From the IMG/VR virus record IMGVR_UViG_3300049825_000011, positions 1-32,846 of that record: a stretch of DNA of 32,846 nt, one strand, 5' to 3'. The DNA is from a virus. The position numbers and the translations under genes were made by a program. Below are positions 5,724-10,188 of this stretch, piece by piece (the stretch's first letter is position 1; every line of letters starts with the position of its first letter). The notes under the pieces were generated by a model that was not told the DNA's origin, searched no databases, and saw only the letters and a list, made by a program, of their open reading frames with translations.

Positions 5724-6998
5724 CTAACCCATCCAGCCGCCAACATTTTCAATCATTGCTTGCTTTTTACGTTTCACCGGCTCTTTTATCATTAGCGCAA
5801 TATACCTAAATGCGTCCGCACCGTGGGAATAGTGGTCGTGCAATGGGCTGCGGCTAAATTGCCCTGTGTCTGGGTCAACCTCGTAACGGTAGTGCCGTAG
5901 GCAGGTAATCCCGTCCGCAGCGTGTTCACGGTCAAACCAGCATGAGGGAAATATTGTCCTAGCGGCGTTAATAGAGTCCACAACAGGCACCTTGGGCAAG
6001 ATATGGGTTTTGTAGCCTGCTGCCCTAACAATGTCGTCAATGCTGCGGCCAGCAGCGGCTAGGGTTTTGTTCTCGGCATCATGCGGTAGCCAGATAATGT
6101 CGTAAACGTAACCGTAGGTTTGCATGGTTGCCATGTAATAGCTGATTGTCTTTTGGCTATCCTCAATGTAGCGTATCAGGCGCGTTTCCATGCCTATGAA
6201 CTGCAAGAACCAAATAGCGGTACTGTCAGACCAGCCAAGGTCAAACACGGCGTGGACGGGCTTTGTGGCGTCGTAGGCCACTCGAGTAATGCGCCCATCC
6301 TTCTCGGCCTGCTGCATTTCCTTGGCAAAGATCGCCCCGTCTACTGTCTGGCGGCACAAACCTTCCCATACCTGGTTGTAGGCTTCCTCGTCCCGTTCCT
6401 TTAGCGCGTCCTTCTCCAACCGTAAAGTTTCAGGGAACCACGGGTTGTCGCTCCAGTTAACTTTGATTTGGATACAGTCATCAGGCGGCTTGACCACGAA
6501 TCGTTGGTAAGTCTCGTCCGTCTCCAACTCAGGGTTGAAGCTAACCCATATCTCGCTGCCCTCTTTGCGAATGGTAGGGATTAAGACGTTCCAGGACAAC
6601 CGGCTAACCGTCTGCGCTTCTTCTACCCATGCAATGTCCACGCCTTCATAAGATTTGATGTTGGCAATGTTGTTCTTTAGGCCAGCAAAGGCAAACTCTG
6701 TCCCGTTCTTGCCTCGGATGCTTGCCTGGGTAATCTCATAGAACCCAAACAGGCCAAGTGCCTCAATTTGGTCGCACAGTAGCTTGTGCACCGAGTCACG
6801 CATGGATGTCATGAACTCTCGCGCACACAGGACACGCAACGGGCTTTTAGCGCCAAGGATTAGTAGCGCCCTGGCTATGCCCCAACTCTTAGCGCCACCC
6901 CGTCCACCGTATGCTACCTTGTAGCGTGACTTTTTAAACAACCCTTCCAGCTTTGCGGGAAACTCTGCATTGGCTATCGCGGCCTGGACATCACTCAT
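5724..6998 (-). CDS. terL: Terminase large subunit (packaging ATPase and nuclease)
   Basis: A 424-aa packaging motor. The ATPase half has Walker A GGRGGAKS (31-38), Walker B VDIAWVEEA (120-128, catalytic Glu 126/127) and the coupling motif SFNP (153-156). The nuclease half is RNase-H-like, with acidic candidates in VFDLGWSD (251-258), HDAE (306-309) and HDHYSHGADAFRY (387-399). The arrangement fits the Terminase_3/PBSX-type group. It overlaps the TerS gene by 8 bp and precedes the portal. Packaging type (headful or site-specific) cannot be read from the sequence alone. Confidence 0.95.
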   Translation of the reverse strand: MSDVQAAIANAEFPAKLEGLFKKSRYKVAYGGRGGAKSWGIARALLILGAKSPLRVLCAREFMTSMRDSVHKLLCDQIEALGLFGFYEITQASIRGKNGTEFAFAGLKNNIANIKSYEGVDIAWVEEAQTVSRLSWNVLIPTIRKEGSEIWVSFNPELETDETYQRFVVKPPDDCIQIKVNWSDNPWFPETLRLEKDALKERDEEAYNQVWEGLCRQTVDGAIFAKEMQQAEKDGRITRVAYDATKPVHAVFDLGWSDSTAIWFLQFIGMETRLIRYIEDSQKTISYYMATMQTYGYVYDIIWLPHDAENKTLAAAGRSIDDIVRAAGYKTHILPKVPVVDSINAARTIFPSCWFDREHAADGITCLRHYRYEVDPDTGQFSRSPLHDHYSHGADAFRYIALMIKEPVKRKKQAMIENVGGWMG

Positions 6999-7329
6999 TG
7001 GGCTTTACAAATGTGACTTGGATGCCCTGCAATGGTTCACCATCAGCGCCGGTTACTTCATTTTTGACGGTTTCTGACCACCGCATTTGCGCTTTTGTCC
7101 ACCATATTAGGCTAGTTGTGTCGCCAGCCAGTGCCTTTGAAAACAGCGTTTTGGCTATTTGCCCGTTTGCTTTTGCTTTGCCCGTGTCTAGTTCGTGCCG
7201 GTAGTGCTTGCGTAGCGTCTTATCGTCTATCCCCACCAAAATGCCTATTTGCTCATGAGGCAAGCCCAAACCGCTAGTGCTTTCAACTAAGCGGCGTGAT
7301 TCATCTGTGGGCAAATGTTCGTGATTCAT
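6991..7329 (-). CDS. terS: Terminase small subunit
   Basis: A 112-aa DNA-recognition subunit of terminase. Residues about 22-42 (GLPHEQIGILVGIDDKTLRK) form a helix-turn-helix, followed by a helical oligomerisation region (about 50-85) and a short C-terminal tail likely to contact TerL. The 8-bp overlap with TerL and this gene order support the call. The pac or cos site often lies in or near terS, but none can be singled out here. No strong Shine-Dalgarno is visible before the ATG. Confidence 0.88.
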   Translation of the reverse strand: MNHEHLPTDESRRLVESTSGLGLPHEQIGILVGIDDKTLRKHYRHELDTGKAKANGQIAKTLFSKALAGDTTSLIWWTKAQMRWSETVKNEVTGADGEPLQGIQVTFVKPNE

Positions 7330-7355: not shown

Positions 7356-7997
7356 TTAAGCAACTTCTTCAGTTTCTGTCAAAAGAACGGCTGTTTTGCC
7401 GGTGAAGTCTTCCCAACGTTTTACGATTACATCGCAATATTTGGGGTCTAATTCCATCAAATAAGCGTGTCGCCCGTGTTTTTCGGCAGCAAGCAAAGTT
7501 GTTCCGCTTCCACCAAACAAGTCCAACACCATGTCGCCGCCTTTGGTGTTGTTCAACATTTGGTACTCAAACAAAGCCACAGGCTTCATGGTTGGATGCT
7601 CACCATTACGGTGCGGTTTGTCAAATTCTAAAATTGTAGTTTGTTTGCGATCTGTTGCCCAAAGATGGCCAGCACCGTCTTTCCATCCATAAAGGCACGG
7701 CTCATGTTTCCAATGATAATCCTGGCGACCCATAACAAGGCTGGATTTTTTCCAAATTAGACATTGGCGAACCGTCCAACCCGCATCATTACATGCCCCA
7801 CGAAAGTTATATCCTTCGCTGTCAGCGTGCCAAATATAAAAAACTGCCCCTTTTTTCATCACTGTGTCGGCAGTAACAAAGGCATCCCGCAAAAACTGAC
7901 GAAAATCGTCGTTGCCCATGCTGTCATTTTGAATGGTCAACTTATCTTTAGTTCCACCTTCATAAGCCACGTTATACGGCGGGTCGGTCAGTAGCAT
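7356..7997 (-). CDS. DNA methyltransferase domain (N6-Ade/N4-Cyt type), separated from ParB-like domain by a G-tract frameshift
   Basis: From an ATG at 7997 the protein is 213 aa; the open frame reaches upstream to about 8060. It has DPPY (5-8, catalytic motif IV), HPTMKP (134-139) and the AdoMet site DLFGGSGTT (159-167). The catalytic motif precedes the AdoMet motif, as in beta-class enzymes of the N6_N4_Mtase family. In related phage proteins this domain is normally fused to the ParB-like domain encoded just upstream. Here a run of 12 G's puts it in the -1 frame relative to that gene. The ATG overlaps the upstream stop region, and the G-run ends 5 nt before it, so it might act as a crude ribosome site. 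Separate expression, frameshift fusion or an OFF state are all possible. Confidence 0.82.
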   Translation of the reverse strand: MLLTDPPYNVAYEGGTKDKLTIQNDSMGNDDFRQFLRDAFVTADTVMKKGAVFYIWHADSEGYNFRGACNDAGWTVRQCLIWKKSSLVMGRQDYHWKHEPCLYGWKDGAGHLWATDRKQTTILEFDKPHRNGEHPTMKPVALFEYQMLNNTKGGDMVLDLFGGSGTTLLAAEKHGRHAYLMELDPKYCDVIVKRWEDFTGKTAVLLTETEEVA

Positions 7998-8560
7998 ATC
8001 AACCCCCCCCCCCCACCTGTAAGTTCTACGACAGCTTCCACATTTGTGGAATCCCCGCACATTAGCCGGTGGTTGCCTAATTGGTAAATATCGCCCAGCT
8101 TAGTCTTTGGTTCCTCTGGCACATCAGGAACGGCATCCTCGTCCGTTAGCCCTTCAATCACTTCAGGCTCTAGCAGCGCGTTTAACTCTTTTGGGTCAAA
8201 ACCTAGCATTTCCAATGCAAACCCGTCTGCCAACAAGTCGTTTAACTCAATGGTCAGCATCTCATTATCCCAGCCAGCGTTAAGCGCCAGCCGGTTGTCG
8301 GCAATGATATAAGCCTTCTTTTGCGTCTCAGTCAGGTCTGCTAGTTCTATGGTTGGCACTTCCTTAAACCCTAGCTTACGGGCGGCTAATAGCCTGCCGT
8401 GGCCTGCAATGATGCCGTTTGCCCCATCTACCAGGATTGGGTTAGTCCAGCCAAATTCCTTAATGCTTGCCGCGATCTGAGCCACTTGTTCATCTGAGTG
8501 GGTGCGGCTGTTGTTTACATAGGGAATTAGCTCTGTGACTTTCTTTTGGGTTATTTTCAT
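7988..8560 (-). CDS. ParB/sulfiredoxin-like domain protein, normally the N-terminal half of a ParB-methyltransferase
   Basis: A 190-aa product with the ParB-like box GIIAGHGRLLAARKLG (49-64) and IADNRLAL (86-93). Its end matches the usual lead-in to the methyltransferase (GDSTNVEAV, about residues 169-177), then reads glycines through the G-tract and stops after LICY. The lead-in without its continuation argues that the ancestral gene was one protein of about 400 aa. In phages such fusions modify their own DNA; the ParB-like part may bind DNA or nucleotide. The start ATG overlaps the stop of the previous gene (ATGA). Confidence 0.85.
   Translation of the reverse strand: MKITQKKVTELIPYVNNSRTHSDEQVAQIAASIKEFGWTNPILVDGANGIIAGHGRLLAARKLGFKEVPTIELADLTETQKKAYIIADNRLALNAGWDNEMLTIELNDLLADGFALEMLGFDPKELNALLEPEVIEGLTDEDAVPDVPEEPKTKLGDIYQLGNHRLMCGDSTNVEAVVELTGGGGGLICY
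8003..8014. repeat. 12-bp poly-C/poly-G homopolymer inside the ParB-methyltransferase
   Basis: Twelve consecutive C's on the plus strand (G's in the mRNA) sit exactly where the ParB-like reading frame and the methyltransferase frame part. The frames would fuse with 10 or 13 G's, but not with 12. I noticed no comparable G/C run elsewhere in the window. Confidence 0.97.
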
Positions 8561-9930: not shown

Positions 9931-10188
9931 TCACACTTCCACTACGGCGCAAATGTCCGCTTCTTGGATGATCTGGTAGTCCTGGCCGTCAACCTTGTGC
10001 GTGGGCCAGTTCAGGTAATCACCGTTGCCGTACTTCACAAAGTCACCTACTTGCGCTTCCCTTACCTTTGGGCCAATGGCAACTATTGTGCCTTCGTTGA
10101 ACGGCTCTTTGTTGTTGACGTAAATAATATCTGACAGATTCCGCACCGTTGGTCGGACAAGAACACGGTCATTCAGCGGCTTGAACAT
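9931..10188 (-). CDS. GroES-like co-chaperonin
   Basis: An 85-aa protein of the chaperonin-10 fold. It begins FKPLNDRVLVRP, as GroES does, has the GTIVAIGP turn (about 33-40), then VGDFVKYGNGD and a closing EADICAVVE strand. Host GroES is about 95 aa; here the mobile-loop region is replaced by a short NLSDIIYVNNKEPFN stretch. Such proteins cap the host GroEL ring, as T4 gp31 does, and could help fold the coat or another phage protein. It overlaps the upstream gene by 20 bp, and no strong ribosome site is seen, so coupling is likely. Confidence 0.85.
   Translation of the reverse strand: MFKPLNDRVLVRPTVRNLSDIIYVNNKEPFNEGTIVAIGPKVREAQVGDFVKYGNGDYLNWPTHKVDGQDYQIIQEADICAVVEV

Follow-up and report, generated by a model that had tools for sequence, protein, structure and literature searches.

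A candidate phase-variable poly-G tract in the ParB-domain DNA methyltransferase genes of phages

A run of 12 G's splits a ParB-domain DNA methyltransferase gene in a viral sequence of 32,846 bases (the whole stretch that was analyzed; here, the window). On the basis of comparative sequence data, the tract is very probably a contingency locus, at which slipped-strand mispairing would turn phage DNA methylation ON or OFF in a phase-variable manner, and the consensus sequence of the window would be in the OFF state. Phase variation, as suggested in the original prediction, is supported by tract lengths that span three frames in near-identical relatives and by purifying selection on both out-of-frame halves of the gene.

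The poly-G tract and the split methyltransferase gene

The features of the window are as follows.

7988..8560, minus strand: upstream ORF (190 aa) with the ParB N-terminal domain, a linker, and the first strand-helix of the methyltransferase domain; predicted truncated OFF product
8003..8014, minus strand: poly-G tract, 12 G (C12 on the plus strand); proposed hypermutable slippage switch
7995..7997, minus strand: ATG read in the methyltransferase frame as the M of VDMLLTDPPY; not a conserved feature of the tract loci
7974..7985, minus strand: catalytic motif IV, DPPY
7356..8060, minus strand: downstream ORF with the catalytic part (motif IV DPPY through motif I FGGSGTT) of a beta-class N6/N4 methyltransferase
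6991..7329, minus strand: small terminase subunit (phrog_309), neighbor
5724..6998, minus strand: large terminase subunit (phrog_3717), neighbor

The tract is the sole G/C run of 7 bases or more in the window. C8 words were observed five times, all inside the tract (expected, 0.59 per window-sized shuffle), and this count was reached in 0 of 100 shuffles. A re-reading of the sequence bore out the original prediction with respect to the tract coordinates, the arithmetic of the frames, and the presence of an ATG at 7997. At 12 G's, the ParB domain ORF and the DPPY-bearing methyltransferase ORF are mutually out of frame. The upstream ORF ends in ...CGDSTNVEAVVELTGGGGGLICY-stop (last residues, GGGGGLICY), its stop codon lying 12 bases 3' of the tract. 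The downstream ORF reads ...GGGVDMLLTDPPYNVAYEGG..., with homology beginning at about residue 17 and the catalytic part starting VDMLLTDPPYNV.

The upstream ORF exhibited a match to ParB_N (Pfam; E = 1.6e-6), and the downstream ORF exhibited a match to N6_N4_Mtase (PF01555; E = 5.4e-26), with DPPY (motif IV) located N-terminal to DLFGGSGTT (motif I FxGxG), i.e., in the order of the beta-class N6/N4 enzymes. Both halves matched the phage family phrog_498 in tandem (profile positions 33 to 220 and then 223 to 433; E = 1.9e-71 and 2.4e-99, respectively), and they show the feature by which this family is recognized, the linkage of a ParB-like N terminus to an N6/N4 methyltransferase. Structural matches of the N-terminal part are ParB/Noc proteins, and those of the C-terminal part are beta-class methyltransferases such as CcrM. 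Intact (i.e., in-frame) relatives encode a protein of about 400 aa.

The tract does split the ParB-methyltransferase ORFs as originally described; as a refinement, it lies within the methyltransferase domain rather than between the two domains, after the first strand-helix (HRLMCGDSTNVEAVVEL) and immediately before motif IV. In an AlphaFold2 model of the relative L447 (mean pLDDT, 71, i.e., moderate), a helix at residues 174 to 181 is followed by a strand at residues 186 to 191 that leads to DPPY, and the predicted helix-strand loop between them is the tract site. The loop encoded by a 10-G tract (LTSGGGVDM) is of the same length as that of the tract-less relatives (LTGGAGVDM).

The methyltransferase gene immediately precedes the genes for the small and large terminase subunits, as is the case in Javan213 and MW202867, and the window also carries portal and head genes. 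A small ORF at 9931 to 10188 (minus strand) showed a match to Cpn10 (GroES-like; Pfam; E = 1.2e-8).

The proposed switch would operate as follows. The gene product would be a single ParB-domain/beta-class DNA methyltransferase of about 400 aa, and the G-run would gain or lose G's during replication through slipped-strand mispairing. A run that keeps the frame would provide a glycine loop of normal length before motif IV, so that the enzyme is made (ON). Other lengths would lead to a stop just past the tract and to a 190-aa product without the catalytic motifs (OFF); the assembled 12-G consensus of the window would be such an allele. A phage population would then be a mixture of methylating and nonmethylating genomes. 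Its benefit may lie in hedging between opposed host defenses, namely, restriction that cuts unmethylated DNA and systems that attack modified DNA. We infer slippage as the mutational mechanism, together with its rate, the expression of the gene, the target of methylation, and the effect on fitness, whereas the tract, its frames, its length polymorphism, its recurrent origin, and the purifying selection are documented by the sequence comparisons that follow.

Tract length in related phages

Relatives of the window were placed by a lineage-specific scan. In the window lineage, 12 G's in the window (OFF) are accompanied by 11 G's in L444 (OFF; 90.1% identical) and 10 G's in L451 (ON; 86.3%), and the tract is absent from L441, L446, and L447, which are in frame (ON). 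Thus, the close relatives are not all uninterrupted fusions devoid of a tract, the finding that was named in advance as speaking against the switch. In a sister lineage with 98 to 99.9% identity, the tracts cover all three frames (9 G's in L183 and L445, OFF; 10 G's in L442 and L449, ON; 11 G's in L450, OFF), and the mixture of tract lengths that the original prediction proposed to look for in related phages is present among near-identical genomes. This polymorphism was found in relatives rather than in the window's own population; a search for a near-identical copy of the window's own phage returned none, the closest relative being 90% identical. At the sequence level, the change in length switches the gene between full and truncated frames, with in-frame and both out-of-frame alleles represented.

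Five pairs of near-identical contigs (L183/L450, L427/L438 [OFF/ON], L431/L437, L372/L387 [OFF/ON], and L162/L448; 27.4 kb aligned) exhibited indels only in methyltransferase poly-G tracts, and other homopolymers of 6 bases or more were unchanged in the same alignments. For example, over 9,820 bases, L162 and L448 are distinguished by a single substitution and by a C5-methyltransferase tract of 15 versus 13 G's.

These pairs bear on the possibility that the true genome is in frame and that 12 is a miscount introduced by sequencing or assembly. The 12-G count comes from one metagenome assembly (a single IMG/VR virus record), homopolymers are prone to error, and runs of 14 to 19 G's at contig ends (e.g., L417 and L218) look unreliable. 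However, isolate genomes and numerous independent contigs share the tract, and near-identical contigs differ at the tracts while their other homopolymers of 6 bases or more stay constant. An error of this kind touches the count in one contig and neither the tract itself nor the pattern. Thus, the indel artifact that was offered as the plain alternative may apply to the exact count of 12 in one contig and does not account for the existence of the tract; as an explanation of the locus, we regard it as improbable.

The same alleles weigh against programmed ribosomal frameshifting or transcriptional slippage, by which an out-of-frame gene would yield the fusion in a fixed proportion. Slippage of the ribosome or the polymerase on long homopolymers is possible, and it could yield leaky expression from OFF alleles. 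However, a programmed shift, including the -1 ribosomal slip put forward in the original prediction, requires an offset that is constant across homologs, whereas offsets of 0, +1, and +2 were all found in one lineage at 98 to 99.9% identity, and the tract-less relatives are plain in-frame fusions. This explanation is very improbable.

Distribution and site specificity of the tract

A scan for runs of G8 or longer that precede a T-DPPY motif by at most 32 bases identified at least 120 viral contigs, and the loci found in this way are, by design, selected by the tract pattern. The same scan of GTDB genomes returned 53 contigs, cultured isolates included, a few of which are not methyltransferase genes. 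Isolate genomes with the tract included those of Collinsella intestinalis DSM 13280, Slackia sp. ZJ119, Pseudoramibacter porci, and Limosilactobacillus. Most of the tract loci are from metagenome assemblies, in which miscounts of homopolymer length are possible. As a composition control, poly-C runs (C8 or longer) before DPPY were found in 4 contigs, compared with at least 120 for poly-G.

Loci chosen by protein similarity alone (i.e., with the tract ignored) carried 7 sense runs of G8 or longer in 158.5 kb of the gene versus 2 in 534 kb outside (Poisson P of about 3e-8). The window tract thus has one of the properties by which simple-sequence-repeat phase-variable genes are recognized, being an intra-ORF run of sufficient length for slippage that is longer than expected by chance and belongs to a run type enriched in the gene relative to the surrounding DNA. 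Among the best 80 loci, i.e., those closest to the methyltransferase half of the window, 4 had a tract upstream of DPPY and 4 had one in the ParB loop.

CGDS-type viral contigs (duplicates removed, among the matches listed) comprised 56 in frame, 26 at +1, and 13 at +2, and the in-frame share of 56/95 among these listed matches exceeds one third (P = 2.8e-7). The genome contigs (bacterial isolates and MAGs, duplicates removed) comprised 9 in frame, 12 at +1, and 12 at +2; the ON share (9/33) showed no excess over one third. In an exploratory comparison, the in-frame share was higher in the viral contigs (56/95, among the matches listed) than in the genome contigs (9/33; Fisher P = 0.002). Prophages being OFF and lytic phages being ON is possibly the explanation of the difference, the two sets also differing in many other ways.

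The in-frame excess also concerns a reading in which the gene encodes two proteins, the methyltransferase half being translated from its own start (ATG at 7997 or GTG at 8060) with the G-run as a ribosome site. An ATG 5 bases past the tract and purifying selection on both halves would fit such an arrangement. However, translation from its own start would deprive the domain of its conserved HRLMCGDS strand-helix, and a fusion is indicated both by the relatives that lack the tract and by the surplus of in-frame alleles. The separate start at 7997, given as a third reading in the original prediction, is not general, since 44 of the 120 tract loci among the matches listed have no in-frame ATG, GTG, or TTG between the tract and DPPY. 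We consider two separate proteins scarcely probable.

Purifying selection on out-of-frame alleles

Between the window and L444, which are both OFF, the methyltransferase part had a dN/dS of 0.042 and the ParB part one of 0.092. Since dN/dS is about 0.04 to 0.09 between these two OFF alleles, the gene is not decaying. Across comparisons between OFF alleles and their relatives, dN/dS was 0.03 to 0.09, and the downstream frame of OFF alleles stays open over about 209 codons. The low dN/dS and the open downstream frames fit a reversible switch rather than decay. That a random frameshift killed a dispensable methyltransferase, as the out-of-frame consensus might suggest, is hardly credible given that selection is not relaxed after the frame break, that about 209 codons are still open downstream, and that one lineage holds both ON and OFF alleles.

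Relation to known phase-variable systems

In Helicobacter, Neisseria, and Campylobacter, poly-G or poly-C tracts are known to make restriction-modification methyltransferases phase variable, one example being the type III M.Hpy300X-like gene (PMC12003011). As in these bacterial systems, a homopolymer lies within the methyltransferase ORF, where a gain or loss of one base decides whether the predicted product is complete or truncated. The bacterial genes belong to restriction-modification systems, whereas that of the window is phage borne and encodes an orphan methyltransferase with a ParB domain; it is located beside terminase genes and carries its tract in the motif IV loop. Phage-encoded poly-G phase variation has a counterpart in Campylobacter phages, whose hypermutable polyG tracts make a receptor-binding protein phase variable (Sorensen et al. 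2021, Cell Rep 35:109214, in the account given in PMC11868660). In that account, the Campylobacter phages switch a receptor-binding protein (i.e., adsorption) within one host genus, whereas the tracts described here lie in a DNA methylation gene of many unrelated phages. The expectation that such a tract would be notable in a phage was right, insofar as poly-G variation in phages, as represented in that account, concerns the receptor-binding protein of Campylobacter phages and none was found for methyltransferases. In the open-access literature that was searched, we found no earlier description of a phage methyltransferase made phase variable by poly-G.

With respect to enzyme family, the window halves match the ParB-domain methyltransferases of phrog_498 in tandem, but most members of that family lack the tract. 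The catalytic part resembles the CcrM and M1.HpyAVI-type beta-class N6-adenine methyltransferases in sequence and fold, whereas enzymes of this type have no ParB domain, and the window gene scored 55 bits against the NCBIfam CcrM cutoff of 830. The mechanism itself is known; the difference lies in the combination of a phage methyltransferase, several loops, and many unrelated phages.

The usual view of phage methyltransferase genes is that they provide an anti-restriction function that does not vary. Were many of them switched stochastically, a phage stock would contain both methylated and unmethylated genomes, with consequences for host range, for escape from restriction and modification-dependent defenses, and for surveys of phage methylomes. 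Many split phage methyltransferase genes in annotations would then be OFF alleles rather than broken genes. Because ON and OFF alleles occur in otherwise nearly identical genomes, it would be possible to test directly under what conditions methylation is costly to the phage.

Other tract sites and recurrent origin

Tracts of G9 or longer in the ParB domain, before IIAGHGR, were found in 46 viral contigs, 28 of which were in frame. Poly-G runs after DPPY (38 in frame, 12 out of frame, and 6 without a methyltransferase-length frame) included pairs of the same gene in different frames (L372/L387). These runs had been meant as a second control; they represent another tract site and are therefore not a clean negative control. 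A quick FastTree tree of 160 sequences, a sample enriched for tracts, gave at least 13 changes for the pre-DPPY tract and at least 7 for the ParB-loop tract, counts that hold for that set. The ParB-type methylase of Streptococcus phage Javan447 (L280:2082-3248), which is annotated as two genes, was rejected as a candidate; it is divided by an in-frame stop codon and has no homopolymer.

Tracts in C5-methyltransferase genes

Phage C5-methyltransferases with a tract after GFPCQDIS were found in at least 120 contigs, including the following.

L162:6439-7314, plus strand: C5-methyltransferase with a tract after GFPCQDIS and a second open frame (also loci L454-L571)

Among the matches listed, 107 C5 loci comprised 82 joined to the methyltransferase frame, 15 joined to a second frame, and 10 joined to neither. 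In 102 of 104 C5 loci, this second (+1) frame has no stop codon across 110 codons, compared with 9.9% of synonymous shuffles. Substitutions at codon positions 1, 2, and 3 were distributed as 0.395, 0.21, and 0.396 in the second-frame region, versus 0.137, 0.081, and 0.782 in the ParB-methyltransferases. The substitution pattern and the open second frame point to dual coding, with the second frame also under selection. The second frame matches phrog_1008, and searches of Pfam, NCBIfam, and PDB returned no match for it.

Whether poly-G contingency loci are a general, recurrent switch of phage methylation appears evenly balanced. Such loci would have been recruited independently at several glycine-tolerant loops of the ParB-domain N6/N4 enzymes and also in C5 genes, and the C5 switch may have three states, in which slippage joins the N terminus of the methyltransferase to a cytosine-methyltransferase C terminus, an alternative C terminus, or a stop.

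In three phages close to the sister lineage of the window (L162, L443, and L448), a ParB-type methyltransferase gene with 10 G's is accompanied by a C5-type gene with 15 G's (L162 and L443) or 13 G's (L448). In Mycobacterium phage Shida (L572:392-1343), the overlapping genes 6 and 5 are each annotated as a DNA methylase, and gene 5 contains sequence of the second-frame type with a GNGVCPQQA motif at its end.
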